Below, in pieces: positions 5,555-34,014 of a stretch of DNA of 44,469 nucleotides. The DNA comes from a virus, in IMG/VR virus record IMGVR_UViG_3300037847_005852, positions 7,326-51,794 of that record; one strand, written 5' to 3'. Within the stretch, counting starts at the first letter, position 1, and each line of letters starts with the position of its first letter. A program made the position numbers and the translations under genes. The notes beneath the pieces were generated by a model. That model had not been told where the DNA came from. It did not search any database and saw nothing but the letters and a program-made list of their open reading frames with translations.

Positions 5555-5773
5555 ATGCAAATCATAAGGAAAATAACTATTGGCAAAGATTATAAAAACG
5601 ATGCCATGCACTACTCTGTTGGCCAAGAAGTTTATGGAGGCCACACTATAGTTAATATTATAGAAGAGAAAGACAAGTATTCTATATATATCGAGAAAGA
5701 CAATAATGTAATGCCGTGGAAAGACTTTAATAAGAACATGGCTGTTTCTGTAGAATACGATCTTAGCTACTAA
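5555..5773 (+). CDS. Hypothetical protein, 72 aa
   Basis: Begins MQIIRKITIGKDYKNDAMHY after a 26-base leader containing ATATATAATTA. Predicted beta-rich with alternating charge (IVNIIEEKDKYSIYIEKDNN) and a closing YDLSY. No membrane segment, Cys or known motif. Its last base is shared with the next ATG (TAATG), so it is translationally coupled to the tandem GroES-like gene. Function unknown. Confidence 0.55.
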   Translation: MQIIRKITIGKDYKNDAMHYSVGQEVYGGHTIVNIIEEKDKYSIYIEKDNNVMPWKDFNKNMAVSVEYDLSY

Positions 5774-6363
5774 TGAAGAGCGTCTTTAACTTTATGGTGC
5801 GACCTAAAAGCTCTAGATCAACCAGTAAAAAAAATATAGACGGCAAAGAATTACTCTTGAATACCGAATTGCAAAACCATAATTATGTAAGCAGATTAGG
5901 TATTGTTACATCTCTACCTATAGCTACAGCTACTAAAATAAACGTAGGGAATGAGGTTATAGTACACCATAATGTTTTTAGAAGATTTAGAGACATAAGA
6001 GGTAAAGAAAAAAACAGCAGGTCTTATTATGAAGAAGATTTGTTTTTTGCAGAGCCTGACCAAATTTATGCTTATAAAAATGATGAAGACTGGCATTGTG
6101 TTAACGGATATTGTTTTATTAAGCCTCTTGCAAATAAAAACGATTTTTCGTTAGAAAAAGAAAGAGTAGGGATAGGCGTTGTTAAATATACTGACGGCAC
6201 TCACGAAACAGGTAGCTTAGTGGGTTTTAGACCGGGTATGGAATACGAATTTAATATAGAGGAGCAACGATTATATCGTGTTCCCACCAATCAAATTACA
6301 ATTAAATATGACTACCAAGGAGACGAAGAAGAATATAATCCAAGCTGGACGCAAAGCGGTTGA
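5773..6363 (+). CDS. Tandem GroES-fold-like protein
   Basis: 196 residues with no catalytic motif, but both halves have the order of elements of a GroES barrel. Half one: FNFMVRPK (5-12), a long loop, SRLGIVTSLP (40-49), INVGNEVIVHHNVFRR (56-71), then EEDLFFAEPDQIYAY (87-101). Half two: GYCFIKPLANK (112-122), a shorter loop, RVGIGVVKYTDG (131-142), SLVGFRPGMEYEF (148-160), then LYRVPTNQITIKYD (167-180). These match 'RVIVKR - loop - GEVLAVG - VGDIVxF - ILxExDILAIV'. The phage therefore seems to have a second, internally duplicated co-chaperonin-like protein just before the terminase genes. Fold assignment is pattern-based inference; partnership with GroEL is unknown. Confidence 0.5.
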   Translation: MKSVFNFMVRPKSSRSTSKKNIDGKELLLNTELQNHNYVSRLGIVTSLPIATATKINVGNEVIVHHNVFRRFRDIRGKEKNSRSYYEEDLFFAEPDQIYAYKNDEDWHCVNGYCFIKPLANKNDFSLEKERVGIGVVKYTDGTHETGSLVGFRPGMEYEFNIEEQRLYRVPTNQITIKYDYQGDEEEYNPSWTQSG

Positions 6364-6586: not shown

Positions 6587-8796
6587 TGTACGAACAGAAT
6601 CTAGTAAAAGTTGTAGAGCCAATAAAACTTACAACTATAAACCGTTTAAACAGGTCTAAATCCTGGAAGTATGGTTACAATAAAGAGCATGATGTTGTTG
6701 TAATAAGCAAAACAGGTCAGATAGGTCAGATCATTGAAATACAAAATTTGTGTATAGCATTGCCGCCTGAACCTAAAACCTTAAAAAAGGGACCTAACAA
6801 ATGGGTTGTTTCGGAATACCCTAAGGAGCTAAAAAATATCAAAAGTATATTTGACTGGCAAACATATCCAGAAGCGTTTAAAAGCAACTGGGAAGCTTAT
6901 ATTGACGAAGAATTTAATAGACGCGATGGTGGATATTGGTTTTACAACAAAAATGTACCAACTTATATTACTGGTACTCATTACATGTACTTGCAGTGGT
7001 CAAAGATTGATGTTGGACACCCTGACTATAGAGAAGCAAATAGACTCTTCTTTATATTTTGGGAAGCCTGCAAAGCTGATATTAGAAGTTACGGAATGTG
7101 CTATCTTAAGAACAGACGGAGTGGATTCTCGTTTATGGCATCAGGTGAAACCGTCAATATGGCAACAATATCAAGTGACGCCAGATTTGGTATCTTATCA
7201 AAAAGCGGTGCAGATGCCAAAAAAATGTTTACCGACAAGGTTGTCCCAATCTCAGTTAACTATCCGTTTTTCTTCAAACCTATCCAGGACGGTATGGATC
7301 GGCCAAAAACCGAACTTGCTTATAGAGTTCCGGCTTCTAAGCTCACTAGGAAATCCATACAATCGCAGGAAAAACAAATAGAGCTTGAAGGACTTGATAC
7401 AACAATTGACTGGAAAAACACTGGCGACAACTCTTACGATGGGGAAAAGCTTAAACTACTTGTCCACGATGAAAGTGGTAAATGGGAAAGACCAGATAAT
7501 ATCCTCAATAACTGGCGAGTTACAAAAACAACGTTAAGACTAGGGGCACGTATTATAGGTAAGTGCATGATGGGTTCAACATCGAACGCTTTAGACAAAG
7601 GTGGTGATAATTTTAAAAAGTTATATAACGATTCAAACGTAACAAAAAGAAACTCTAATGGACAAACTAAATCCGGACTGTATTCATTATTTATCCCGAT
7701 GGAATGGAACTACGAAGGATTTATTGATGAGTACGGGCAGCCCGTATTTAATAATCCTGATAAAGAAGTTTTGGACCCGTTTGGCGATACTATTGAACAA
7801 GGAGTTATAGATTACTGGGAAAACGAAGTTGAAGGTCTTAAACAAGACCAAGACGCTTTAAATGAATATTACAGACAGTTTCCCCGTACAGAAGACCACG
7901 CGTTTAGAGATGAAACTAAAAATAGTATATTTAACTTAGCAAAAATCTACGAACAAATTGATTATAACCAAGATCTACGTAATAGTAATACTATAACACA
8001 AGGTAATTTTCAATGGGTTAACGGTGTAAAAGATACAAATGTTGTGTTTATACCAAGCCCACAAGGTAGATTTAAAGTATCTTGGATACCAGGTACGCAT
8101 TTGCAAAATAAGTGGGTAACTAAAAACGGTGTTAAATATCCAGCTAATGAGCACATAGGCGCTTTTGGTTGTGATAGCTACGATATTTCAGGAACGACTG
8201 ATGGCAAGGGCTCTAAAGGCGCATTACACGGACTTACTAAGTTCACAATGGAAGATGCACCACCTAGTTCATTCTTTTTAGAATACATAGCTAGGCCTCA
8301 AACAGCAGAGATATTTTTTGAAGACGTACTAATGGCGTGCGTGTTTTACGGAATGCCTATACTTGCTGAGAATAACAAACCTAGATTACTCTATCATTTT
8401 AAACGTAGAGGTTATAGGGGTTATTCGATGAACCGACCTGACAGATTATGGAATAAGCTTTCCGTAACTGAAAAAGAAATTGGCGGAATACCAAACTCTA
8501 GTATGGATATGAAGCAATCGCACGCAGCAGCAATAGAAATGTACATTAACGACCACGTTGGACAAATAGCAGAAGGTGAATACGGTACAATGTATTTTAA
8601 TGAAACTTTAAACGACTGGTCTAAATTTGATATAAATAATAGAACAAAATATGATGCTGCTATTAGTTCTGGCCTCGCTATTATGGCTTGCCACAAAGAT
8701 TTATACCGACCCGTTGGACAACAACAAAAAACAAAATTAAACTTAAAAATTGCTAGATACAATCAAGCAGGTTTTAATTCAACAATAATAAAATAA
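6586..8796 (+). CDS. terL: Terminase large subunit (packaging ATPase/nuclease)
   Basis: 736 residues, longer than most TerL but normal for crAss-like ones. It pumps DNA into the prohead and cuts the concatemer. The N-terminal ATPase has an unusual Walker A-like stretch LKNRRSGFSFMASGE (174-188), lacking the classic GK[ST], and a Walker B LLVHDESGKW with Asp295-Glu296. STSNALDKGG near 331 fits the coupling region. The C-terminal RNase-H-like nuclease begins at GAFGCDSYDISG with Asp530 and Asp533 as likely metal ligands; further acidic residues occur in the last 150 residues. It sits between the TerS-like gene and the portal. Family call is secure from arrangement and motifs; assignment of each catalytic residue is approximate. 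Confidence 0.9.
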   Translation: MYEQNLVKVVEPIKLTTINRLNRSKSWKYGYNKEHDVVVISKTGQIGQIIEIQNLCIALPPEPKTLKKGPNKWVVSEYPKELKNIKSIFDWQTYPEAFKSNWEAYIDEEFNRRDGGYWFYNKNVPTYITGTHYMYLQWSKIDVGHPDYREANRLFFIFWEACKADIRSYGMCYLKNRRSGFSFMASGETVNMATISSDARFGILSKSGADAKKMFTDKVVPISVNYPFFFKPIQDGMDRPKTELAYRVPASKLTRKSIQSQEKQIELEGLDTTIDWKNTGDNSYDGEKLKLLVHDESGKWERPDNILNNWRVTKTTLRLGARIIGKCMMGSTSNALDKGGDNFKKLYNDSNVTKRNSNGQTKSGLYSLFIPMEWNYEGFIDEYGQPVFNNPDKEVLDPFGDTIEQGVIDYWENEVEGLKQDQDALNEYYRQFPRTEDHAFRDETKNSIFNLAKIYEQIDYNQDLRNSNTITQGNFQWVNGVKDTNVVFIPSPQGRFKVSWIPGTHLQNKWVTKNGVKYPANEHIGAFGCDSYDISGTTDGKGSKGALHGLTKFTMEDAPPSSFFLEYIARPQTAEIFFEDVLMACVFYGMPILAENNKPRLLYHFKRRGYRGYSMNRPDRLWNKLSVTEKEIGGIPNSSMDMKQSHAAAIEMYINDHVGQIAEGEYGTMYFNETLNDWSKFDINNRTKYDAAISSGLAIMACHKDLYRPVGQQQKTKLNLKIARYNQAGFNSTIIK

Positions 8797-8800
8797 CAAT

Positions 8801-11224
8801 ATGGCTAACCAAATTGTAAATAGTTTTTTCCCAAGCCAAGTCGCATCAGACCAAGAAAAAATGTCATATGAGTACGGCTTAAAAGTAGGGCGCGCTATTC
8901 AGCAAGAATGGTTTTCAGGTAATGCTGGAAACATACGTCATAATACTAACCAAAAATCTTTTCACAATTTAAGACAATACGCTAGAGGAGAGCAGAGCAT
9001 TCAAAAGTACAAAGACGAATTATCTATCAATGGTGATTTGTCTTATCTTAATTTAGATTGGAAGCCTGTACCTATTCTTTCAAAGTTTGTTGATATTGTA
9101 GTAAACGGTATAGCTGATAGGTCTTTTGATATTAAAGCATATTCGCAAGATCCATTTGGTATTTCTAAACGTACGGAATACATGGAATCTATGATTCGCG
9201 ATATGCAAACGAAAGACTTAAATAATTTTGTTAAAGAAGAATTTAATATAAACTTATTTGAAAATGACCCAGAGCAACTTCCAGAAACTAAGGAAGAACT
9301 CGAGTTACACATGCAACTAAGTTATAAGCAATCAATAGAAATAGCTGAAGAGCAGGCTATTAATACATTATTGGAAGGCAATAATTATGACTTAATAAAA
9401 AAGCGTTTATATTATGATATTGCTACGCTTGGAATAGCTGCTGTAAAAAATAGATACAGTACAGCTGAGGGTGTTAAAGTGGAATATGTGGATCCAGCTA
9501 ACTTAGTTTATTCATATACGGAATCTCCTTACTTTGAAGACATATATTATGTAGGTGAAGTTAAATGGATTCCTATAAACGAATTAAAAAAGCAATTTCC
9601 TGAATTAACTAATGAAGATTTAGATGAAATAAAAAAGAAAAATTCTAAATCGTACGGTACTGCTTTTGATTCTACAACACAAAACCAAGATTTCAGAGAT
9701 TCTAATACAATACAGGTTTTATATTTTAATTATAAAACTTATATGAACGAGGTATATAAGATTAAAGAAACAGCTTCAGGCGCTTCTAAAGCTATATTAA
9801 GAGATGACCAATTCAATCCACCAGAAGATTCTGTTGATTTTAGCAAATTATCACGTTCATTAGAAGTTCTTTATGAAGGAGCTTTAATATTAGGTACAGA
9901 TAAATTATTAAAGTGGAACATAGCTACTAATATGATGCGCCCTAAAAGCGACATCACAAAAGTAAAAATGAATTACAGCATAGTAGCGCCAAGAATGTAT
10001 AAGGGTAAAATAGAATCTTTAGTTAGCAGATGTACAGGTTTTGCTGATATGATTCAGCTTACTCATTTAAAAATGCAGCAGGTTCTTGCAAGAATGATGC
10101 CTGATGGTGTTTATTTAGATGCTGACGGGCTTGCTGAAATAGATTTGGGTAACGGTACAAACTATAATCCGCAGGAGGCGTTAAACATGTTCTTCCAAAC
10201 AGGTTCTGTTATTGGTCGTTCATTTACTCAAGAGGGTGATATGAATCCAGGTAAAGTGCCTATTCAGCCTTTACAAACAGGTGCAGGCGGACAAAAATTA
10301 CAAACTCTTATACAAACTTACAACTATTACTTGCAAATGATTCGTGATGTTACGGGTCTTAATGAAGCACGTGACGGTTCTACACCTGACTCAAGAGCAT
10401 TAGTTGGTGTACAAAAGCTAGCAGCGGCAAATTCAAATACAGCTACAAGACATATACTTGATGCAGGTTTATTCTTAACCGCTGAAACTGCAGAGTGTTT
10501 ATCATTAAGAGTTTCGGATATTATAGAGTTTAGTCCTTCTAAAGAAACGTTTATACAAAAAATAGGTGGTTTTAATGCAGCAACATTAGCGGAGCTTAGT
10601 GATTTGCATATGTACGACTTTGGTATATTTTTACAATTATTACCAGACGAGGAAGAAAAAGGCATGCTTGAAAACAATATACAGACAGCTCTTTCTGCTG
10701 GCTTAATTGATTTGGAAGATGCTATAGATATTAGAGAAGTTAAGAATATAAAATTAGCTAATCAACTATTAAAGCTTCGACGTAAGAAAAAGCTAGAGCG
10801 CGATCAAATGATGCAGCAGCAAAATATTCAAGCGCAAGCTCAAGCGAACGCTCAGGCGCAGCAAGTGGCAGCGCAAGCAGAAGTGCAAAAAGACCAAGCG
10901 TTATTCCAAACAAAAGCACAGTTAGAGCAACTTAAAGCGCAAATGGAACAACAAAAAATGCAAGCCGAAGTTGCCGCTAAGAAAGAGCTTATGACTTTAG
11001 AATTTAATTACAACATGCAATTAAAAGGTGTTGAAGTTGAAGGACAAAAATCAAAAGATAAAGAAAAAGAAGACCGCAAAGACGCAAGAACCAAATTACA
11101 AGCTTCTCAACAGAGTGAATTAATAGAGCAAAGACAGAAGCAAACAGGTCCTAAAAACTTTGAATCTGCTGGTAATGACATCATTGGCGGTGGATTTGGT
11201 TTAGGAACCTTCGAACCCAAGTAA
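8801..11224 (+). CDS. Portal protein
   Basis: 807 residues, starting four bases after TerL. The portal forms the dodecameric ring through which DNA passes. It opens with ASDQEKMSYEYGLKVGRAIQ and WKPVPILSKFVDIVVNGIAD, a stretch typical of crAss-like portals, and has the helical core with VEYVDPANLVYSY at about 226-238. From about 650 it turns into a long Gln/Ala-rich coiled coil (QAQAQANAQAQQVAAQAEVQ) that would make the barrel extending into the capsid. It ends GGGFGLGTFEPK. Position between TerL and the scaffold/capsid genes agrees. It is larger than lambda- or T4-type portals, as expected for podovirus portals with a barrel. Confidence 0.88.
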   Translation: MANQIVNSFFPSQVASDQEKMSYEYGLKVGRAIQQEWFSGNAGNIRHNTNQKSFHNLRQYARGEQSIQKYKDELSINGDLSYLNLDWKPVPILSKFVDIVVNGIADRSFDIKAYSQDPFGISKRTEYMESMIRDMQTKDLNNFVKEEFNINLFENDPEQLPETKEELELHMQLSYKQSIEIAEEQAINTLLEGNNYDLIKKRLYYDIATLGIAAVKNRYSTAEGVKVEYVDPANLVYSYTESPYFEDIYYVGEVKWIPINELKKQFPELTNEDLDEIKKKNSKSYGTAFDSTTQNQDFRDSNTIQVLYFNYKTYMNEVYKIKETASGASKAILRDDQFNPPEDSVDFSKLSRSLEVLYEGALILGTDKLLKWNIATNMMRPKSDITKVKMNYSIVAPRMYKGKIESLVSRCTGFADMIQLTHLKMQQVLARMMPDGVYLDADGLAEIDLGNGTNYNPQEALNMFFQTGSVIGRSFTQEGDMNPGKVPIQPLQTGAGGQKLQTLIQTYNYYLQMIRDVTGLNEARDGSTPDSRALVGVQKLAAANSNTATRHILDAGLFLTAETAECLSLRVSDIIEFSPSKETFIQKIGGFNAATLAELSDLHMYDFGIFLQLLPDEEEKGMLENNIQTALSAGLIDLEDAIDIREVKNIKLANQLLKLRRKKKLERDQMMQQQNIQAQAQANAQAQQVAAQAEVQKDQALFQTKAQLEQLKAQMEQQKMQAEVAAKKELMTLEFNYNMQLKGVEVEGQKSKDKEKEDRKDARTKLQASQQSELIEQRQKQTGPKNFESAGNDIIGGGFGLGTFEPK

Positions 11225-22726: not shown

Positions 22727-25700
22727 ATGCATTATATCGTAGATAATAAAAAAATTACATTAGAAGAGGCAGAAGCTTTAGCTAATGAGTTTGGTACAAC
22801 TGTTGAAGAATTAGCCCTATCAGGCGGATGGAAACAGGTAGAAGAGGGAAAGACAACGGTTCCGGAGGAAACGACTCCACCAACGGAACCAGTAAAAACA
22901 ACGGCCGCTGGGGATTCCAGTTTGGCCGATACTTCTTTGGAGTCACAAGAAATACCTGAGTTTAATCCAAAATCTTTAAAACCGCCAAAAAAAGCACCTG
23001 AAGGCGATCCTTATATGGGATTTTACGCAGACGGCACAGCTGCTTTTGATGATGATATAGATATAAACAAAACTAAAATACAAGAAGAGCCTAACCCTAG
23101 GTTAGATAGGTTTGCTCAAAATGTAGCAGAATACGCTAAAAAAAATAGCGGTATAATGCCTTTTAGTATTGATGAAAAATACGGTACACGTATGCAGTTT
23201 GGTGAATTTGAAGGTGCTACTTCAGATCCTTACATGAGTCAAACTCAAATAAATCTCACTAACGGAAAATCTATTATAGTACCTTCAATAGACCCTAATA
23301 ATATTCAGGAAAAAACAAATGATGACGTTTATGGTGTAAAAAGCTGGGGCGGTACTCCAACTACTACAGAAGAGGATATAAATTTTGAAATAGAAGAAGC
23401 ACAATTAAACTTACCTTCTAAAAGTCAATATATACAATATAATGAAGAAGGGACCTACGATTTTGTTGCTAAGTATTACGATGCCACTCAGTTAGAAGCT
23501 ATCGGTATTAATCTTGTTGATTTCCAGGGTTGGCTAAACAAAAATGGGCTTGCTGAAGACTTTGAACAAGATGTAAAAGACGGTCTTTATAACGATGGAT
23601 TGATGGCCACCAATTATTCTGACGCAGAAGATACTAGTGTAGCATTAGAAGAGTTAAAGCAAAAAACTCTTAGAGGTTTTTTAGACACATATATAGATTC
23701 TGATATTGAGCATACTTCTAAAAAGTCTTTTATAGATTTTTATAATAGCAATAAAGAAAAATTTAATGAATCTGTTGGTTTTGATGGGGCTTATAAACTT
23801 TATACAAAAATAAATAATCGACCTGGTGAAAATTACATTTTAAATGCTGTTAAAGGATCTTATAAGCTTAATGAATTTGATGCATATAGAAAAGCTGCAT
23901 TTCCTGCCGCTGTAAATGCTGACTTAAGAATTGAGCGCAAAATAGAAGAAGATTATGCTGAAAAACTAAACCGAAATGAGTTTGAAAAATTTATAGACCC
24001 TTTTAAACAATTTGTTGTTGATGCTTTTATAGGTTTAGAAGGTGCAGGCTTAGAAACTGTAAGATATATGCAAGATCGGGTAATGGACACCGTAGGTGAT
24101 TTTACAGGATTAACTACAAATGTGTCCGCCCGCCAAGATAGATTACTTTGGGATAAATATCAACAAGAACGAGTTAATAACCAATTAGGGTATGTTTCTA
24201 CAGATAAAGGTGATGTAGTTTATTATAAAGATAGAAAGTTTATTGTTCAAGACGACGGCCAAATATTTGATACTGAAGCCGAGCTAAATGTAACCTCTAT
24301 TTTAGATTCTAAACAACTAAAAGAAATAAATGATTTAGCTTTACAATCCACAGAAAGAGATTATGACATAAGTACTAGAGGGGGATTGGGAGCTGCTGGT
24401 GCTGTAATTGGTAATATTGGTTGGCAAATATTACTAACAAGAGCCACAGGACAGCTGCGGATGGCTGCCAGTGAAAAATATATAGCTTCTATTAATAATT
24501 TTAAAAATGTTAAAAGCTTAAGGAAGTACATGACCGCTACGAACAAAGCGGGTAATAGAAGAGGTATGAATTGGAAAGGTATAAGTGCTGACACTTACGG
24601 CCAATTCGGTATTAAATTACCTTTTAATGCAGCTATGGTTGACGCTACAGTTTTTCAAACTTTTTATGGTGCTTCTATTGGGTATGAAAACACTTACTCA
24701 GCAGCTAGAAAAGCTGGATTGACGGATAAAGAAGCTGAAGCTTTAGCAATAGAAGCTAGCAAGCAAATGGCTGTTTTATATGCAGGAACGGGTCCTATAA
24801 ATCCGCGTATTAAAGCCTTAAATAAATTAGATGATTTTTTAACAAAATCAAATGCTACAAACAGAGCTGTTGCTGATTTTATACGTTCTGATAAAAAGCT
24901 AGAAGCATTTCGCAGCTCTTTAACAGCTAGTGTTGGTAAAGGAGCTAAGTTTATAAAGAATTTTTCTGGAGAAGGTACAAAAGAAGTTGTACAAGAAAAT
25001 ATACAGCAAGCAGGGGAAACATTATTTGTTAATAAAAACATTAATCGATTAGCTAAAAAAGAAATATTAGATGCGGAATATAGTTTAAAAGATTTTATGG
25101 AAACTACCGCTCTTTCTTTTATAACTGCAGGCGCTATAGGTAGTGTAAATATTCGGAATATTGGCTATAAAGGCAATGAGGAAAAAAGATTTGAAAATCT
25201 TTATTTAATGTCTCAAGATATTAAAAGCTCAACTGCACTTCTTAATACAATGGTTGAAGCAGGTAGAATAACAAAAGAAGATGCTAAAACCTTAATATCT
25301 CAAGCAAAAGCTGTAGCTAATCAGGAAGTTAATATTCCAAAATGGATGCGAAACCAAGGTGTTGATGCTGTTGAAGTAGCTGTGCTCCTTGAAGAAAGAG
25401 AACAGGCTGAAAAAGCTAAAAAGAATAGTAACCCTGTTACCCATGGGCCTTTAGATGCTAAAATTGAAGAAATTGACAGTAAAATTGAAAACCTTATAAA
25501 AGACGCTGCAGCAAAGCAAACAGAAAAAGAAGCTTCTATTGTACAACAAATACTTGGTGTTGATAAAGTAAAAGTATTTAATACCATAGAAGAAATGGTT
25601 GAAGCGGGTATTGACAGAAAAATAGCTGAAAACGTTGATGGGTTTGTAGAAGTAGATGGTCAGATTTATATAAATTTAGAGGTTGCTTCAAAAAATTTAG

Positions 25701-28700
25701 CTATAAGCGTAGGTTCTCACGAATTACTACACCGCGTATTGTATGCTGAATTAAAATCAAACCCTAATAAAGAAGCTATAATTAATCAGCTTAGAGATGC
25801 AATAATTGCAGGCGGAAATACTGAAATTGAAAAAAGAATAAGAGCAGCTGTTAATTTTAGAAATAACGAATTAAAAAAATTACAAGATCAATATAAAAAA
25901 GGGGAAATAACTAAAAAGCAATTTAATAAGCTAAAAAATAATATAGCTGGCTATGACATTGTTTTTAATGAAGACGGCACGGTGTCTGGTAAAGATATTG
26001 ATGAATACATTACTGCTTTTTCTGACGCTTTAGCAAAAGAAGAAATTAGCATGTCTGAACCTCTTTTATTGGAAATTGGAAGATGGATTTCTACTCAGAT
26101 TAAGGCTGCACTTGGTATTGATAAACAATTTGAAACAGGTAAAGATGTTTTAAAATTTGTTAAAGATTACCAAAAATCTATAAAAAAGGGGAAGCTTAGC
26201 GGCGCAGCTAAACTAAAATTAAAAGCGTCAGAAAAAGCACTTAGCGAACAAACGGATAGTGGTCAACCTGGAAAAAGATCGTTTTCGGTTAGCACCAAAA
26301 AAGAGCTTTTTAATGTAATTAAAGATGTTCAGCCTAAAAACGCTAAAACTAAGTCTGAATTTCAATCTGATCCCGGGTTTACGGATTTATACATGCTAAT
26401 GCAACCCGGACAACCAATACATAATTTTATAGTAAGCAAGTTTCCTGGTCAAACAGAAAAAGTTAGAGGTCTAATAGAGTCTTTAGAAGAACGCCTTATT
26501 AATTTTGACCCTGAAAAGAAAAGGAAAGGGAGCAATGAAGTAATCGGTGCGGAAGGATTTGTAGAATTCCTTATGGCTAATATTAATTTTGCCGCGCTGG
26601 ACATCAATAAAAAATTAGCTAAAGAAGCCGCTATAGAAAAACAAACAGGAAGCCTTGATAGTGAAACAGCAAAACAGGTTGCTGATATTTCTAATGAAAT
26701 TAAAAAGGAGCTAGCTAAAAGACCTGAGTATAAAGATTTACTTAGAAGAAGGGTAGTAGATGAAGATGTTATAAAAGATATTGAACAAAAAGTAACTAAA
26801 ATAGTTGCCCTTTTAAAATCTCGTATAGATGCTAAAGTAAGTAACAACGTTACTGTTACACCTTTAATTAGAGAAATTAAAAAAGAAGCTGGTAAGTCAA
26901 TAGACATTGATTTTAAAAAGGCTATGGGTGGTAAAAAAGATGGTGAGCTGCGTAAATTTTTGTTACGTAATAAAGCCGCTATTTTAGAAAACATGTCAAC
27001 CACTTGGCTGAGTCAAGCAATACCTAATGCTATTCAAAAAAGCGTTGATGGCGTTTTTACAACCGATTGGAAAGGTAAAAAAATAGATAGGGAAACAATG
27101 GAAACAGATTTAGCTGGCCGTACATCTGGTGCAGATTTGGTTAGACGTTTACCAAAAGCTCCTGGTGCTATTTCTGATTCAGACTTTTTGTCGGCATTCT
27201 TAGAGCCTAACGGTAATCCTACAAGAGGTAAAAAAGAATCTTTAGCTAAAGCCATGGCTGAAGAAATAACATTTGATATAATTAAAAAATCTTTTGACGA
27301 AAACGGTCCTATTGCTAAAGCATTTATAGAAAATCAAAAGCGCAACGGTGTTGAAAATGCTGAAAATATGGGCCCTGAATTTAAAAGACAGGCTGAGCGT
27401 GGTAATGTTAAATTTTCATTTACAGCACCTATTTCGGAGGGGCGCCCATCCGCTGTAAGAGTATTAAATGAAGCAGATATTATGGCTACTCTTCAATTGC
27501 TTGATTCTGCAGCTGGTGATTCAAGAGTATTAAAAGAACAATTAGTACAAACCGCTTTAACAAAAATTCTTAAAGACAACGGTTATGGAAATAAATTATT
27601 TGATTTAAGCGATCCAAAGCAACTAGAAACATATACACAAACCATTAAGGAATTTGTTGTTCCTATTATGGGAAGAGATTTTTGGGGAACAGAAAAAGCT
27701 ACTCATTTGCTGCATAGTAAGGAAATAATGTTTGGCGGAAAAATTAAGAAAAGACTTAAAGAGCTTGAAGACGATCCAACAAAACAACAAAAAGAAAAAG
27801 AAAAATTTATAGAAGAATTTGAAGCTGCAAGGGATAAGTTTATTGAAGATATATTTAATGATTCAAGCCAAAAATACGGTAAAAAAATAGCTAATCCTAA
27901 AAAATTTAAAAATCCTCAAACAGGCAGGACTATAGATACCACACCTTTTAATGTTTTTCAAAATGAAGAAATTGCTCAAGCGGCTTACGAAGACGGAGCT
28001 GTTCTTAGTTATAATATATGGACAGAAAAAACGGGTAAACAATTATGGTTTGGTTTAAAAAATGTACTTCAACAAAACAAAGATAATCCAAATGTAGCAA
28101 TAGCAATAGCTACCTGGTTAAGCTCTTCTGCTAGTAATACAAAACACCCTATGAGAGAGTTAGCTAGTATGATAGGATATTCTAAAGGGTTCGATAAAAA
28201 AGTTTCACCTATAGAAATAGAGCATGCTTTGCCGGCTACCGCTATGATACAAACTTTATTTAATACAGCTTTACAAAACCCAGAGGACTTTGCAACCAAC
28301 TATTCGTATGTAAGTAAGAATTATGTTCTTATAGGAATGAATAAATCAGACGAAAATAAAACTAAGTCTTTTAAGAAAACTAACATAAAATCATACAATT
28401 TAAGATCAGGTACATGGTGGGACAGATATTTAAATCCTATAACTGCAAAAGCACAAGGATATTTAGGAAAAGGAGATAATAAAAAATTTATTGATGGTGA
28501 TTTTGGAATAGATTCTAAATCAATTATATTATTTTCTGGAAATTCTTTATATGAAGTAGCTGGAGTTAGAAAAAATGGTTCTTTTTTATCTGATTTTGAA
28601 ATAGGCGCACAAAAAATTAAACTTAAAAAAGGCAAGAAGTATTTTAAGTTAAAAGATATTGCAAAAGTAGCAGCTAAGGATAAAGTAGAACTAGATAGAT

Positions 28701-30850
28701 TCCGAGACGGCCAAAGAAAATATTCAGCAAGTTTTCCAGAGCCATCAGCATTAAACGCTCAGTTTAACGCAATACTTAGAAGAAAGAGTGGTATTGACGG
28801 CAGAACAGAAATATCTAGAACTAGAGCTCAAATTTTAGGTAAGGACAAAGGTAGATTTAAATTCTTTATTGCACCAGGTGCTGACGACTTTAGAGGCTTA
28901 GTACATTATGCTTTTGCAGGACAAGGCAAGCAAGGTGAAAAAGATATGGAGTTCTTTGAAAAGAACCTTATGGATCCATACTTTAAAGGCATCGCTGCTA
29001 TAGACGCTATGCGACAACTTATTAAGAGAGAGTTTAAGGTTGTTACTACGGAGTTTAAAGATGAATATGCAATGCTTAGTGAATCAGTACCCGGCACTCC
29101 ATTTACTTATGACCATGCAGTTCGTGTATATATGTGGGGTCTTGCAGGCACAAATATTCCTGGTCTAAGTGATAAGGACAGAAACGATTTAGAAAACGCT
29201 ATTTTAGATAATCCAGCATTAGCTGATTTTGCCGAGGCGCTACTTATTGTCGGCCGTCGCGAAACATGGCCTGACCCATCAGAGTTTTGGATTGGCGATT
29301 CCGTATTGTCCGATCTTAATAGTATGACTGAAAAAGTTGGTCGTAAAGAAATACTTGCGCAGTTTATTACAAATGTCGATGCCATATTTGACGAAGGGGC
29401 ACTTAATAAGGTAGAGGCTATCAAAGGCAGAAAGCATCGTGAAGCACTTGAAGACGCAATATATGCCATGAAAAACGGCAGTAACCGTCCTTCAGGTGCT
29501 AATATTCAAACTAACAAATGGATTAATTGGATTAACGGTTCTACAGGTGCAATCATGTTCTTTAACCGCCGCTCGGCATTATTACAAATGTTATCATTTA
29601 CCAACTTTATAAATTGGTCGGATAATAATCCTATAAAAGCTGCAGCAGCATTTGCAAACCAAAAACAATACTGGAAAGACTTTGTATTTATATTTAACTC
29701 TGATAAGTTAAAAGAACGTCGTGGTGGTTTAAAACAAGACGTTAGTGAATCTGAAATTGCACAGGTAGCAGGTAGGTCTAAAAATAGTCCGCAAGCTATT
29801 CTTGCTTACATGCTTAAATTAGGTTTCACCCCCACACAAATCGCGGATAGTATGGCTATTGCTACAGGTGGCGCTACTTTTTATCGCAACCGTATAAATA
29901 CATATTTAAAGCAGGGGATGCCACAAAAGAAAGCAGAAGAAAAAGCATTTGAAGATTTTTCTAAAGCATCGGATATTGCACAGCAGTCTTCTGATCCAGC
30001 ATTGGTATCACAACAACAGAGATCAATTTTAGGGCGCTTTATATTGGCTTTTGCTAATACTCCTATGCAATACACTCGTTTGATGAAAAAAGCTGGCCAG
30101 GACCTTATAAATGGTCGTGGAGATGCAAAAGAGCATATAAGTAAAATTCTTTATTACGGATTTATACAAAACTTTATATTTTCCGCTTTGCAAAGTGCAA
30201 TGTTTGGTTTATTCTTTGATGATGAAGAAGATGATGAAACGCGCAAGAAAAATGCCGATAAGAAATTATTAAAAACAGTTAATAGTATGGTAGATACTAT
30301 TCTTCGTGGTTCAGGCATTTATGGTGCAATTGTTTCTACAATTAAAAATACTATTCAACAATATTATATTCAAGAAGGTAAAGGTTTTATGGCTGATCAT
30401 GGTTACACTCTGTTATCTGCATTTAATATTTCACCACCAATAGGCTCTAAGTTTAGAAAACTATATACAGCAATTAAAACAAGAAAATTTGAAAAAGATG
30501 CTATTGCCGCAAGAGGCTGGGCAATTACCGCAGGCGGCAGAGTTAATTTAGGTCCCAATTGGGCAATTTTAGGTAGCTTAGTTTCTGGTGTAGCTAACGT
30601 GCCTTTAGACCGTGTGTATGATGAAATAAATTCTATATCTGAAGCGCTCGACGCTCGTAACAAAGCATGGCAACGTATAGCATTGGCGCTTGGTTGGAAA
30701 ACGTGGGATGTGGGCGTTAAAAATGAAGAGCATGACTTAATTGAAACTTTAGCTAAAGAAAAACGTAAAGAAGAGGGTATAAAAAAAGCTGCTGAAACAC
30801 GTCGCAAAAAGAAAGAAAAAAGAGAAATTAAAGACGCGGGAGATTTTTAA
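22727..30850 (+). CDS. Giant 2707-aa internal/polyvalent-type protein with zincin motif
   Basis: The largest gene. The N-terminal 30 residues (MHYIVDNKKITLEEAEALAN) form a small module, followed by a Pro/Thr linker. A long helical part leads to ISVGSHELLHRVLYAELKSN, where His998-Glu999-x-x-His1002 is a zincin motif and Glu1093 (DIDEYITAFSDAL) may be the third ligand. Around 1826-1836 is VSPIEIEHALP, slightly HNH-like. The last about 700 residues (for example SALLQMLSFTNFINWSDNNP, RSILGRFILAFANTPMQYTR) resemble the large polyvalent-protein-associated domains of phages; the end is Lys-rich. No RNA-polymerase DxDxD-type motif was found, unlike the giant proteins of gut crAss-like phages. It is probably packaged and injected with DNA; protease action is inferred. 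Confidence 0.75.
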   Translation: MHYIVDNKKITLEEAEALANEFGTTVEELALSGGWKQVEEGKTTVPEETTPPTEPVKTTAAGDSSLADTSLESQEIPEFNPKSLKPPKKAPEGDPYMGFYADGTAAFDDDIDINKTKIQEEPNPRLDRFAQNVAEYAKKNSGIMPFSIDEKYGTRMQFGEFEGATSDPYMSQTQINLTNGKSIIVPSIDPNNIQEKTNDDVYGVKSWGGTPTTTEEDINFEIEEAQLNLPSKSQYIQYNEEGTYDFVAKYYDATQLEAIGINLVDFQGWLNKNGLAEDFEQDVKDGLYNDGLMATNYSDAEDTSVALEELKQKTLRGFLDTYIDSDIEHTSKKSFIDFYNSNKEKFNESVGFDGAYKLYTKINNRPGENYILNAVKGSYKLNEFDAYRKAAFPAAVNADLRIERKIEEDYAEKLNRNEFEKFIDPFKQFVVDAFIGLEGAGLETVRYMQDRVMDTVGDFTGLTTNVSARQDRLLWDKYQQERVNNQLGYVSTDKGDVVYYKDRKFIVQDDGQIFDTEAELNVTSILDSKQLKEINDLALQSTERDYDISTRGGLGAAGAVIGNIGWQILLTRATGQLRMAASEKYIASINNFKNVKSLRKYMTATNKAGNRRGMNWKGISADTYGQFGIKLPFNAAMVDATVFQTFYGASIGYENTYSAARKAGLTDKEAEALAIEASKQMAVLYAGTGPINPRIKALNKLDDFLTKSNATNRAVADFIRSDKKLEAFRSSLTASVGKGAKFIKNFSGEGTKEVVQENIQQAGETLFVNKNINRLAKKEILDAEYSLKDFMETTALSFITAGAIGSVNIRNIGYKGNEEKRFENLYLMSQDIKSSTALLNTMVEAGRITKEDAKTLISQAKAVANQEVNIPKWMRNQGVDAVEVAVLLEEREQAEKAKKNSNPVTHGPLDAKIEEIDSKIENLIKDAAAKQTEKEASIVQQILGVDKVKVFNTIEEMVEAGIDRKIAENVDGFVEVDGQIYINLEVASKNLAISVGSHELLHRVLYAELKSNPNKEAIINQLRDAIIAGGNTEIEKRIRAAVNFRNNELKKLQDQYKKGEITKKQFNKLKNNIAGYDIVFNEDGTVSGKDIDEYITAFSDALAKEEISMSEPLLLEIGRWISTQIKAALGIDKQFETGKDVLKFVKDYQKSIKKGKLSGAAKLKLKASEKALSEQTDSGQPGKRSFSVSTKKELFNVIKDVQPKNAKTKSEFQSDPGFTDLYMLMQPGQPIHNFIVSKFPGQTEKVRGLIESLEERLINFDPEKKRKGSNEVIGAEGFVEFLMANINFAALDINKKLAKEAAIEKQTGSLDSETAKQVADISNEIKKELAKRPEYKDLLRRRVVDEDVIKDIEQKVTKIVALLKSRIDAKVSNNVTVTPLIREIKKEAGKSIDIDFKKAMGGKKDGELRKFLLRNKAAILENMSTTWLSQAIPNAIQKSVDGVFTTDWKGKKIDRETMETDLAGRTSGADLVRRLPKAPGAISDSDFLSAFLEPNGNPTRGKKESLAKAMAEEITFDIIKKSFDENGPIAKAFIENQKRNGVENAENMGPEFKRQAERGNVKFSFTAPISEGRPSAVRVLNEADIMATLQLLDSAAGDSRVLKEQLVQTALTKILKDNGYGNKLFDLSDPKQLETYTQTIKEFVVPIMGRDFWGTEKATHLLHSKEIMFGGKIKKRLKELEDDPTKQQKEKEKFIEEFEAARDKFIEDIFNDSSQKYGKKIANPKKFKNPQTGRTIDTTPFNVFQNEEIAQAAYEDGAVLSYNIWTEKTGKQLWFGLKNVLQQNKDNPNVAIAIATWLSSSASNTKHPMRELASMIGYSKGFDKKVSPIEIEHALPATAMIQTLFNTALQNPEDFATNYSYVSKNYVLIGMNKSDENKTKSFKKTNIKSYNLRSGTWWDRYLNPITAKAQGYLGKGDNKKFIDGDFGIDSKSIILFSGNSLYEVAGVRKNGSFLSDFEIGAQKIKLKKGKKYFKLKDIAKVAAKDKVELDRFRDGQRKYSASFPEPSALNAQFNAILRRKSGIDGRTEISRTRAQILGKDKGRFKFFIAPGADDFRGLVHYAFAGQGKQGEKDMEFFEKNLMDPYFKGIAAIDAMRQLIKREFKVVTTEFKDEYAMLSESVPGTPFTYDHAVRVYMWGLAGTNIPGLSDKDRNDLENAILDNPALADFAEALLIVGRRETWPDPSEFWIGDSVLSDLNSMTEKVGRKEILAQFITNVDAIFDEGALNKVEAIKGRKHREALEDAIYAMKNGSNRPSGANIQTNKWINWINGSTGAIMFFNRRSALLQMLSFTNFINWSDNNPIKAAAAFANQKQYWKDFVFIFNSDKLKERRGGLKQDVSESEIAQVAGRSKNSPQAILAYMLKLGFTPTQIADSMAIATGGATFYRNRINTYLKQGMPQKKAEEKAFEDFSKASDIAQQSSDPALVSQQQRSILGRFILAFANTPMQYTRLMKKAGQDLINGRGDAKEHISKILYYGFIQNFIFSALQSAMFGLFFDDEEDDETRKKNADKKLLKTVNSMVDTILRGSGIYGAIVSTIKNTIQQYYIQEGKGFMADHGYTLLSAFNISPPIGSKFRKLYTAIKTRKFEKDAIAARGWAITAGGRVNLGPNWAILGSLVSGVANVPLDRVYDEINSISEALDARNKAWQRIALALGWKTWDVGVKNEEHDLIETLAKEKRKEEGIKKAAETRRKKKEKREIKDAGDF

Positions 30851-30861
30851 AACAAAATAAA

Positions 30862-31335
30862 ATGAAATTAGAAGTATTAAGATTTAGCAGTCAAGAAGAC
30901 TCAACCAATGGAATATTATTTGACATTACAGACGGTAAGCGAGAGTTCTTATGTTACACGCTTGAAGACGAACACAGAGACGTTAAAAAATACGGTGAAA
31001 CCCGAGTCCCTGCTGGAACATATAACATTACTCTCCGGACGGTGGGAGGATTTCATGGTAGATATTTAAAGAAGTATGGGGAAATGCACAAAGGAATGTT
31101 ATGGGTACGTGAGGTTCCTAATTTTGAGTATATTCTTATTCACACTGGTAATACTGATGAACATACTGCTGGGTGCTTGCTTCTTGGTGACACCCAACAA
31201 ACAAATTTTGATTGGAGTGATGGATTCGTTGGTCGCTCTACTATTGCGTATAAAAGAGTATATCCGAAAATTGCTGCAGCGTTAGTAGCAGGTGAAGATG
31301 TAACTATTACGTATACTAACTTTGACACAATATAA
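30862..31335 (+). CDS. DUF5675-like protein, possible peptidoglycan enzyme
   Basis: 157 residues matching the DUF5675 pattern: FLCYTLEDEHRDVKKYGETR, VPAGTYNITLRTVGGFHGRY, then YILIHTGNTDEHTAGCLLLG with His94, Gly96-Asn97-Thr98 and Gly104-Cys105. The 'IHxGNxxxxTxGCxxxG' motif looks like the catalytic His/Cys pair of L,D-transpeptidase-like enzymes, and the family often sits in phage lysis regions. It is the best candidate for a lysis- or cell-wall-acting enzyme in this window, and a small membrane gene follows 11 bases downstream. No signal peptide. Biochemical activity of the family is, to my knowledge, not firmly established. Confidence 0.65.
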   Translation: MKLEVLRFSSQEDSTNGILFDITDGKREFLCYTLEDEHRDVKKYGETRVPAGTYNITLRTVGGFHGRYLKKYGEMHKGMLWVREVPNFEYILIHTGNTDEHTAGCLLLGDTQQTNFDWSDGFVGRSTIAYKRVYPKIAAALVAGEDVTITYTNFDTI

Positions 31336-31346
31336 CTACATTTAAA

Positions 31347-31502
31347 ATGAACGAGCAGGATTTTAGATTAATGCTACTAAACGTAACAACCATGGGGATA
31401 AGCATGGCACAAGTTGAAACAATACTTAAAATATCTTTACTGCTCGTATCTATCGGGTATACAGCCCAAAGATGGTGGATATTATATAAAAGTAAAAAAT
31501 GA
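31347..31502 (+). CDS. 51-aa one-span membrane peptide (holin-like candidate)
   Basis: ATG at 31347 gives MNEQDFRLMLLNVTTMGISM and then a hydrophobic stretch VETILKISLLLVSIGYTAQR (about 23-42) with the aromatic/basic end WWILYKSKK. This fits a single membrane helix, N-terminus out and basic C-terminus in. It lies between the DUF5675-like gene and the histidine kinase gene, whose ATG overlaps its stop (ATGA at 31499-31502). Two readings: a small holin or antiholin beside an endolysin-like gene, or an accessory subunit of the kinase. Too small for family assignment. Confidence 0.6.
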   Translation: MNEQDFRLMLLNVTTMGISMAQVETILKISLLLVSIGYTAQRWWILYKSKK

Positions 31503-32731
31503 AACTTTCAATAGCGGCCCAAATATCGCTTGCAATTGCAGTAGCTATTATGATAGCTTTCTTTAGCTATCAAACAGCTCTTGTAATTGGCTATGCAGAT
31601 TTGACAGATAAATCACCGATATACGGTTGGGTTGCTGTAGTTTCTTTTATGCCTTTTTTCTTTTATGCCGTTGTTGAGCTTATAAGAAAAGCTAGGTATA
31701 AGTTTCAAACTATAGATGACACGTTATCGGCTATTAACGGTTCGAATGCGTTGGTTGAGTTTGAACCTGACGGTACCATATTGTCATGCAACGATATATT
31801 TTGTAAAGTAACTGGGTATTCTGAAAAAGAACTTATAGGCAAGCACCATAGAATGTTTATGCCAAAGAATACAGACGAGGACAAATATAATACGTTTTGG
31901 TACGAACTAAGAAAAGGTAAAGTAAGTAGCGGGGAGTTCTTACGTATAAACAAAAAAGGTAAAGAGTTTTGGATATACGGCAATTACAACCCTATTAAAA
32001 ATCCATACGGTGAAGTATATCGCGTTTTAAAGATTGCTTCAGATATTACAGATAAAAAGAAAGTGCAGGCTGAGGTAGCAAAGAAAAACGGTTATTTAGA
32101 GCACGCTGCAAAGATTCTAAGGCACGATATGCATTCAGGTATAAATACATATATACCAAGAGGATTAAGCTCCTTAAAACGCAGATTATCAAAAGAAGAT
32201 ATAGACAAGCTAAAAATTACAGCACCTCTTAAAATGATACAGGAAGGGTTGTTGCATACACAAAAAGTGTATAAAGGAGTAAAAGAGTTTACAAACTTAG
32301 TAAAAGAAAATACAGATTTAGAAACCGCATTGTTAGATATAAAAGAAGCACTGAAGAATTACTTGTCTTCAACTTCTTACGGCAAGCAAGTAAAAATAGA
32401 TGATTTAGTTGAATCGAATATAAACGAAGCTTTGTTTTGTACAGCTGTAGATAACTTAATTAGAAACGGTTTAAAATACAACAACAGCGCAACAAAGCAT
32501 GTTCATGTTTACATGGAAGGTGATAATATTCTCATAATAGAGGACAATGGAATAGGTATGAGCCAGGAAGAGTTTGAAAAGCTTTCTGAACCCTATGCTA
32601 GAGGCAGTAAAGACGAAACAGGTTCGGGATTAGGTTTGAATATATGCAATGCCATAATCGAGGAACACGGCTTTACGATTACATCGGAAAAAATAGAAAC
32701 AGGAACAAAAATTAGAATAACTTTAAAATGA
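31499..32731 (+). CDS. Membrane PAS-domain sensor histidine kinase
   Basis: A complete 410-residue sensor kinase. Two membrane helices (about 8-31 and 42-62) enclose only about ten residues outside, so ligand sensing is probably cytoplasmic or in the membrane. A PAS domain (about 75-186) has GTILSCNDIFCKVTGYSEKE and GKHHRMFMPKN..., then FWIYGNYNPIKNPYGEVYRV and ASDIT, the style of energy-taxis (Aer/BdlA-like) PAS domains. The dimerization helix has KILRHDMHSGINTY with phospho-acceptor His209. The ATPase has N-box DNLIRNGLKYNNS (Asn323), G1 IEDNGIGM (Asp349), and G2 GSGLGLNI (375-382). All key residues are present, so it is likely active. It overlaps its neighbours on both sides by ATGA and is followed by its apparent partner receiver. 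Confidence 0.92.
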   Translation: MKLSIAAQISLAIAVAIMIAFFSYQTALVIGYADLTDKSPIYGWVAVVSFMPFFFYAVVELIRKARYKFQTIDDTLSAINGSNALVEFEPDGTILSCNDIFCKVTGYSEKELIGKHHRMFMPKNTDEDKYNTFWYELRKGKVSSGEFLRINKKGKEFWIYGNYNPIKNPYGEVYRVLKIASDITDKKKVQAEVAKKNGYLEHAAKILRHDMHSGINTYIPRGLSSLKRRLSKEDIDKLKITAPLKMIQEGLLHTQKVYKGVKEFTNLVKENTDLETALLDIKEALKNYLSSTSYGKQVKIDDLVESNINEALFCTAVDNLIRNGLKYNNSATKHVHVYMEGDNILIIEDNGIGMSQEEFEKLSEPYARGSKDETGSGLGLNICNAIIEEHGFTITSEKIETGTKIRITLK

Positions 32732-33165
32732 TCGATTCAATATTATTAGTAGACGACGAGGATCTATTCCACTTGGTATTTGAAGACGCTTGCAGTCTTC
32801 TTGATATGACACTATCACTACAGGCACTAAATTCTTCAGATGAAGCTGACCGTTTGTTTAAAAAATGGTTTGTAGAAGGACCAATAGAAGAGCGTCCTGA
32901 ATGTGTGTTTGTAGACCTCAATATTATAGGCTCTAGCTTTGATGGTATAGAGCTAATTAGAAAAATCAATACGGATTACGGCAATGGCGTAGTTATAGGA
33001 ATTATATCATCTTCCGATGATAACCAGGAGATTGATAAAGCAAAAGCTGTCGGTGCGCAGTTTTGGATTATTAAATCTGATGAAATAGAACCAAGATTAG
33101 AAGAATTCTTAAAAGACTACGATAGTTATACTGCTAGAACAGCGCCGTTCAAAGTGTATAAATAA
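32728..33165 (+). CDS. Single-domain response regulator (CheY-like receiver)
   Basis: 145 residues, receiver domain only. The acidic pocket is ILLVDDED (Asp9, Asp10), the phospho-acceptor is Asp63 in CVFVDLNI, the switch Ser is in VIGIISSSD (94 or 95) and the conserved Lys is 116 in FWIIKSD, so phosphotransfer from the upstream kinase is plausible. No DNA-binding or enzymatic output domain follows; the last 20 residues (YDSYTARTAPFKVYK) are a short tail. Such stand-alone receivers act by protein contact, as CheY or Rcp1 do. The start overlaps the kinase stop (ATGA) and its stop overlaps the next start (TAATG), strong evidence for a matched pair within one coupled cassette. Confidence 0.9.
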   Translation: MIDSILLVDDEDLFHLVFEDACSLLDMTLSLQALNSSDEADRLFKKWFVEGPIEERPECVFVDLNIIGSSFDGIELIRKINTDYGNGVVIGIISSSDDNQEIDKAKAVGAQFWIIKSDEIEPRLEEFLKDYDSYTARTAPFKVYK

Positions 33166-33716
33166 TGGAAATATCTCAGCAGACTAGGGACTTACTTTTA
33201 AAGCTATCGAAAGAGAAAAAAGTATATTTAGAAGGTAATCTTTTAAAAGTGCTTAAAGCTAAAAGGCAAGACACCGAGTTTGCAGAGTATTTAAGGTTTT
33301 GTAAAGAAAGAGATAAAGAGGCTCGCAAGAAAAGGTTAGAAGTTACTAAGCAAGTACAGAGTCAAAATAAAGAGCTTGAAGCAGCAGCTAAAGAAAACAA
33401 CGGGTTGCTTATTGATTTACAAAACGCTGTAAAAGAAGCTGAACAACTTCGAGATGAAGCGGTTGAAGATCTTGATTTATTACAAAAACGCACTCAGTTT
33501 GAGTTAATTGGTTTAATTGTTAAGGTTGCACTCGTAATTATAATTGGTGTAGGCGTAACAACTACGTTAATGTATACAATTGCATTATTAGCTAATAAAG
33601 ACACCACAATACTTGGCAATGCCTGGAGTAATCTGTTCGGTATATTATTAACAAACAGTTTCAGTATTATTGGAACTATAATGGGTGTAAAATATGCAAC
33701 AGAAAAATCAGAGTAA
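33165..33716 (+). CDS. Coiled-coil protein with two C-terminal membrane segments
   Basis: 183 residues. The N-terminal 110 are charged and helical (RKKRLEVTKQVQSQNKELEA, EAEQLRDEAVEDLDLLQKRT), clearly coiled-coil. Two hydrophobic segments follow, about 115-142 (LIGLIVKVALVIIIGVGVTT) and 153-174 (AWSNLFGILLTNSFSIIGTI), with a short loop and tail VKYATEKSE. Both termini would be cytoplasmic, with the coiled coil inside. It is coupled to the response regulator by a one-base overlap. It could be a holin-like pore or the membrane target of the receiver; nothing in the sequence decides. I believe similar proteins occur in marine phages, but no named family is claimed. Confidence 0.65.
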   Translation: MEISQQTRDLLLKLSKEKKVYLEGNLLKVLKAKRQDTEFAEYLRFCKERDKEARKKRLEVTKQVQSQNKELEAAAKENNGLLIDLQNAVKEAEQLRDEAVEDLDLLQKRTQFELIGLIVKVALVIIIGVGVTTTLMYTIALLANKDTTILGNAWSNLFGILLTNSFSIIGTIMGVKYATEKSE

Positions 33717-34014
33717 CTGGGGAGATAGCGTTAGAGCATGGGCGAGTGGCTACAAAGATAGTGTAGCAGTAGATTACGACGCTAGTCAGATGCGCTACAT
33801 CTATGTGCACAAAGACCACGAGGACAGCTGGAGGGGTGGTGTAAAAGATAATAGCGGCGTAGCATCTTCTCAATGGCAGTATTGGATGGTTCCTACTTTT
33901 TTCGCTATAATGTTTGCATTAATAATATTTGCATTTGTACTTTATAGAGATAATGACCGAGCGCTAAAACAAAAAAGAACTGATAAAATAATGAATTTTA
34001 TAAAAAATAAATAA
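33694..34014 (+). CDS. One-span membrane protein, 106 aa
   Basis: Begins MQQKNQSNWGDSVRAWASGY and has a soluble N-terminal 60 residues, a single hydrophobic helix (WMVPTFFAIMFALIIFAFVL, about 64-83), then a Lys/Arg-rich tail (RALKQKRTDKIMNFIKNK). It overlaps the previous gene by 23 bases in another frame. Position and topology would suit an accessory of the preceding membrane protein or a spanin-like lysis protein, although the helix is central rather than N-terminal. No family recognised. Confidence 0.6.
   Translation: MQQKNQSNWGDSVRAWASGYKDSVAVDYDASQMRYIYVHKDHEDSWRGGVKDNSGVASSQWQYWMVPTFFAIMFALIIFAFVLYRDNDRALKQKRTDKIMNFIKNK

Follow-up and report, generated by a model that had tools for sequence, protein, structure and literature searches.

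The DNA analysed here (44,469 nucleotides; "the window", to which unprefixed coordinates refer) spans positions 7326-51794 of a 51.8-kb virus record (IMGVR_UViG_3300037847_005852). At 30862-34014 it carries a tight run of plus-strand genes encoding a DUF5675 candidate lysin, a 51-aa TM protein, a membrane PAS histidine kinase (HK), a lone receiver (RR), a putative membrane effector (CC) and a 106-aa membrane protein. The source of the window is a phage: its terminase matches phrog_6681 (4e-169) and its portal phrog_6547 (4e-158) in a PHROGs search, and the initial annotation was right to regard the HK-RR pair as phage-borne. Relatives of the terminase indicate a podovirus-type phage, and the hosts of its cultured relatives are Flavobacterium (44%) and Cellulophaga. 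Elsewhere in the window, the structural module includes a match to a GroES-like co-chaperonin (5773-6363; phrog_13932, 3e-12), and a 2707-aa ORF at 22727-30850 that has no PHROG match at E≤0.001 is probably a giant virion-associated protein.

HK (31499-32731, +) is a confirmed ORF of 410 aa, comprising two TM segments (~5-30 and ~39-62), a PAS domain (84-182), a DHp domain (184-267) and a CA domain (277-410). Its AlphaFold model (mean pLDDT 85) contains two TM helices separated by a loop of ~8 residues, then PAS, a two-helix DHp and CA. In Pfam, PAS_9 (2.7e-14) and HATPase_c (5.5e-18) were the only matches, with no HisKA-type family for the phospho-acceptor domain at E≤1; given the two-helix DHp of the model, a HisKA-type match is not an absolute requirement. 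The phospho-acceptor H209 (codon 32123-32125, +) lies inside the invariant block YLEHAAKILRHDMHSGIN. All of the kinase boxes originally annotated (His209, Asn323, Asp349 and GSGLGL at 375-380) were found in place and are conserved in 73 distinct relatives; in a larger set, H209, D210, N323, D349, G351, G377 and G379 are kept in 141/141 sequences and G375 in 138/141. HK combines the phospho-acceptor His, N box, D/G1 box, G2 box and ATPase fold of a histidine kinase. The PAS domains of MmoS and Aer are flavin sensors, and these are the nearest to the window PAS by sequence (MmoS, 3ewk, 2.7e-23; then Aer, 8dik, 5.5e-14), its N98, H117 and W134 aligning with identical residues in MmoS/Aer, which makes a redox cue plausible for this kinase, though not a general feature of its family.

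RR (32728-33165, +; 145 aa) overlaps HK by the annotated ATGA (32728-32731), and both proved to be real ORFs. It scores 31.7 bits against Pfam Response_reg, just over the cut-off of 30.2, and found only weak matches in the PDB. Its landmark residues are D9/D10, D63 (the phospho-acceptor; codon 32914-32916, +), S94-S96 and K116; those singled out in the initial annotation (Asp9/10, Asp63 and Lys116) are conserved in 61 distinct relatives and again in a wider set of 149, where D63, S94, S95 and K116 occur in every sequence and D9/D10 in 148. Fifty columns are at least 99% conserved across the 149 sequences, the C-terminal tail is conserved, and all 61 distinct close receivers are exactly 145 aa long. 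Two N-terminal acidic residues, the Asp, Ser/Thr and Lys, and the Response_reg match mark RR as a response regulator receiver.

HK and RR had been described as a complete pair. The pair itself stands, but the description missed an equally conserved third gene directly downstream, CC (33165-33716, +; 183 aa), which encodes an N-terminal input domain with an EGN motif, a coiled coil with the conserved motif KRLxVTKQVQxQNKEL, and a two-TM hairpin. In the AlphaFold model (pLDDT 83), a small domain at the N terminus is followed by one helix (37-142), predicted to be a coiled-coil stalk continuing into TM1, and then by another (148-182). Of 135 CC proteins, 134 have exactly two TMs and contain a GTIMG motif. 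TM2 (residues 157-176, LFGILLTNSFSIIGTIMGVK; 33633-33692, +) is near-invariant, with T163, N164, F166, S167, I168, G170, T171, I172, M173, G174 and K176 present in 134/134 viral CC proteins, and such invariance is remarkable for a membrane helix. CC belongs to no family in Pfam, PHROGs or PADLOC; Foldseek retrieved nothing for its fold from the PDB and one uncharacterised homologue (A0A6J5PRT3) from BFVD. PADLOC models matched the cassette at chance level only, which does not class it as anti-phage defence.

The pair had been regarded as a rare, one-off occurrence; it is instead part of a widespread three-gene cassette. Scans of IMG/VR with short conserved peptides as queries, from which the best 80 loci were taken, returned at least 589, at least 392 and at least 513 viral stretches encoding a relative. 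Among 51 non-redundant loci compared, HK is present in 50, RR in 49 and CC in 47, the next commonest family reaching 22. Across 149 distinct receivers, CC follows in 139 of the 141 with downstream room (118 within -25 to +20 bp) and HK precedes in 131 of the 133 with upstream room (121 within 60 bp), so the co-occurrence in related phage contigs that the initial annotation asked about is real, and HK and RR are adjacent and co-inherited as a cognate pair should be. The two receivers without CC are L059, near a contig end with CC partly visible, and the bacterial L196. We are highly confident that HK, RR and CC constitute a functional three-gene unit.

Other genes of the run are optional: the 51-aa single-TM protein (31347-31502, +), which overlaps HK by ATGA and has a weak holin match (phrog_920, E=0.19), occurs in 9/51 loci, and the 106-aa membrane protein (33694-34014, +), which overlaps CC by 23 bp, in 19/51. 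Inserted genes were also seen. L057 (7677-8165) and eight other loci carry, between RR and CC, a multi-TM protein of 162-169 aa with a C-terminal coiled coil (cluster 10), for which Pfam and PHROGs gave no convincing match, and a patatin-like phospholipase gene (3.6e-21) lies between kinase and receiver in L322 (2600-3592, +), with similar genes in L319 and L320, all from large phages.

HK, RR and CC are under strong purifying selection. For pairs with 0.1<dS<1.5, median NG86 dN/dS was 0.049 for RR, 0.039 for the DHp of HK, 0.089 for its CA, 0.136 for its sensor and 0.097 for CC; constraint on the kinase is tightest in the DHp, the domain through which known kinases contact the receiver. The claim of an intact phage pair keeping every catalytic residue is borne out by the conservation and strengthened by this selection. 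That HK and RR are host genes acquired by chance, or an assembly chimera, could draw on the bacterial relatives in two Bacteroidetes MAGs (L195 and L196), but hundreds of viral contigs carry the genes amid surrounding phage genes, selection maintains them, and, apart from the query locus, neither the 296 phylum genomes nor the 291 order genomes searched yielded a close relative. We consider this explanation extremely improbable; distribution and selection together rule out assembly chimerism and host contamination. Confinement of the pair to one contig with flanking host genes, named at the outset as the sign of a chimera, is not what is seen, hundreds of viral stretches carrying it.

Within the wider set, kinases range from 211 to 712 aa with 0-3 TMs ahead of the H-box, and their sensors comprise PAS, tandem PAS, GAF+PAS, TPR, TM-only regions or none, sometimes with two kinases at a locus. 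Sensors are thus swapped freely, while the kinase core and the output stay constant. Carrier contigs reach 322 kb. The receivers are far more alike than the phages that bear them: 12 phages whose terminase is of the Terminase_6N type average 28% identity in terminase and 75% in receiver, and in 31 phage pairs terminases share less than 25% identity and receivers 65-91% (22% versus 91% for L280/L285), which implies transfer of the cassette between unrelated phages, extreme constraint on it, or the two together. Nearer the window, L018 and L026 have terminases 48% and 37% identical to that of the window, and receivers 93% and 88% identical. The cassette may be a mobile plug-and-play circuit in which interchangeable sensors and one near-invariant receiver control a phospho-gated channel that decides when the membrane opens, a picture that we offer tentatively.

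In two loci, a microbial rhodopsin gene overlapping CC lies inside an HK-RR-x-rhodopsin-CC operon (L077:8177-8758, +; L388:4001-4582, +). Its product matches Bac_rhodopsin (3.7e-14), has RYLDWTFTVP and DLTAKLG retinal-lysine motifs, and is nearest among solved structures to proteorhodopsin and the viral rhodopsin OLPVRII; one carrier is a 297-kb phage whose portal is T4-type, the other a further viral contig. The rhodopsin could possibly serve as a light input for a tailed phage. A tyrosinase/hemocyanin-like ORF, recognised by eye only, lies at the edge of one of these viral contigs (L388:1-1389).

Hundreds of uncultured phages, unrelated to one another, carry the cassette, and bacteria hardly ever do. 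A first scan of bacterial genome contigs with the receiver as query found none, and no carriers beyond the seeds were present in 296 genomes of the phylum, 291+291 of the order and 196 of the family. A search of ~85,000 bacterial genomes, with a reach of close relatives, gave only a few, which suggests that the carriers are virulent phages. Two rare chromosomal loci occur in Bacteroidetes MAGs; a further locus, L197, seems to lie on a contig of phage origin that was binned in a MAG. The L196 locus lies on a 967-kb contig and has RR and a multi-PAS kinase but no CC; the kinase (6870-9836) is divided between two ORFs, 6870-8417 and 8559-9836, whose PAS repeats are near-identical. In L195, gene order is kept, HK is ~52% identical and RR is of the same family, and positions 2-91 of the third gene product match the CC profile (E=6.4e-19), followed by HisKA and HATPase rather than the hairpin. 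What the CC input domain feeds would thus differ: a membrane hairpin in phages, a second kinase in this bacterium.

This domain swap is our main argument that the target of the receiver is the CC input domain, and we think it likely that the receiver signals to CC. The initial annotation had proposed that the pair might hijack host CheY-like signalling, and RR could be imagined to divert this or another host two-component pathway, with CC either an anchor in the membrane or a neighbour of no related function; binding to other proteins is a common mode of action of lone receivers, and the extreme conservation of RR could reflect a conserved host target. With 139/141 receivers travelling with CC, mostly overlapping it, with the CC input domain fused to a kinase in L195, and with many Bacteroidetes lacking flagella, we find such diversion improbable and favour CC as the dedicated membrane partner.

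Phages carrying the cassette appear to sense something in the infected cell and to act on its membrane. In the sequence of events that we envisage, the kinase would sense the condition of the infected cell, here via a membrane-tethered cytoplasmic PAS domain, autophosphorylate on H209 and pass the phosphate to D63 of RR. Once phosphorylated, RR would dock on the input domain at the N terminus of CC; the resulting change would run down the coiled coil (~75 residues) into the two-helix hairpin, with its polar near-invariant second helix, which would open or assemble in the host inner membrane. Phosphotransfer, receiver-CC contact and membrane output are the inferred steps of this chain, which we favour with moderate confidence as the whole explanation; L196, which keeps HK and RR without CC, counts against it. 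Its most likely result would be the timing of membrane permeabilisation, and so of lysis.

The gene beside the cassette on its upstream side, although not part of the core, bears on this output. The DUF5675/phrog_1501 protein (30862-31335, +; DUF5675 5.8e-26, weak Tlde1_dom 0.09) has a motif, IHTGNxDEHTAGCLLLG, that resembles L,D-transpeptidase-type catalytic sites, making it a candidate endolysin. Endolysin-type genes that recur beside the cassette are Amidase_2+PG_binding_1, GH19+PG_binding_1, Peptidase_M15_3, phrog_33083 and DUF5675, together with a recurring holin-like family (Phage_holin_4_1, E=0.003, below the cut-off; phrog_199, E=0.0014). A tested lysin family lies within 4.5 kb in 21 of 66 loci, which are related and not independent, and two thirds of the 66 have no recognised lysin within that distance; 19 lysis genes are near the cassette against 4 at 4-9 kb. 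The link is suggestive, and on these counts we softened a strict reading of the cassette as a lysis module.

Lysis or membrane-permeability timing may be the output, though we hold this assignment tentatively. Alternatively, the HK-RR-CC chain might operate without lysis, with CC acting as a channel gated by phosphorylation, or as a membrane block, to keep out superinfecting phages or to adjust cell energetics. Holins evolve fast, whereas TM2 hardly varies among 134 viral sequences, 22/51 loci already have separate holin-like genes beside CC, and many loci lack a recognised lysin nearby; set against this, lysis genes are associated with about a third of loci, large phages included, and we regard a non-lytic role as possible but rather doubtful. 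That the hairpin is conserved far beyond what is usual for holins would suit an ion-specific channel, or a host partner that is itself conserved, better than a generic hole. As for the original proposal that the pair senses energy or redox state to time lysis, it is compatible with the MmoS/Aer-like PAS and with the lysis genes at about a third of loci; its single input does not hold, because the sensor is swapped between phages, and its lysis component is tentative.

What is known of lysis timing in virulent phages comes mostly from holin clocks and from the lysis inhibition that superinfection triggers. A phosphorelay that is widespread among viruses and almost always comes with a membrane effector would amount to a programmable sensor for the lysis choice and, if confirmed, would to our knowledge be the first viral phosphorelay class to bring its own effector. 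Absence from the deposited phage genomes searched has kept the cassette hidden so far: 50,697 records contained neither receiver nor CC and only distant partial kinases, and we found no description of it in the open-access subset of the literature. With the cassette, signal sensing by viruses becomes open to direct test, and its swappable sensors and fixed output make it a naturally modular circuit.

Compared with known systems, the cassette shares with canonical bacterial two-component systems the H-, N- and G-boxes, the PAS domain, two TMs and the receiver DD/D/S/K residues, but differs in being phage-borne, in lacking a DNA-binding output and a HisKA-type Pfam match, and in its near-obligatory third membrane protein. 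Like DivK, CheY and Spo0F, RR is a single-domain response regulator expected to act by protein binding, as DivK does via the pseudokinase DivL (PMC5361649); unlike them, it has a conserved C-terminal tail within its 145 aa and an operon-encoded dedicated membrane partner. The L195 chromosomal locus is alike in gene order, HK, RR and CC input domain, and differs in its output, a second histidine kinase in place of the hairpin. Phage-encoded two-component proteins have been reported before, namely AgrC of phiCDHM1, which has no response regulator (PMC3901668), and soil-phage phoR/phoB, where PhoR was proposed to act on host PhoB (PMC10987575), but no conserved cassette with a dedicated effector is described for either. 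The cREC domains of jumbo phages share a receiver-like fold, but these divergent receivers are reported never to occur with histidine kinases and are tied to NAD+/ADPr enzymes (PMC7824862). Phage holins are likewise short TM hairpins encoded near endolysins in some loci, and CC has the size of one (a small membrane protein with 1-3 TMs; 2 in 134/135), but it matches no described holin family in Pfam, PHROGs or structure searches and has a long cytoplasmic coiled-coil stalk and a receiver-linked input domain. The cassette is a phage variant of two-component signalling, with canonical catalytic residues and a membrane effector family new to the databases searched.
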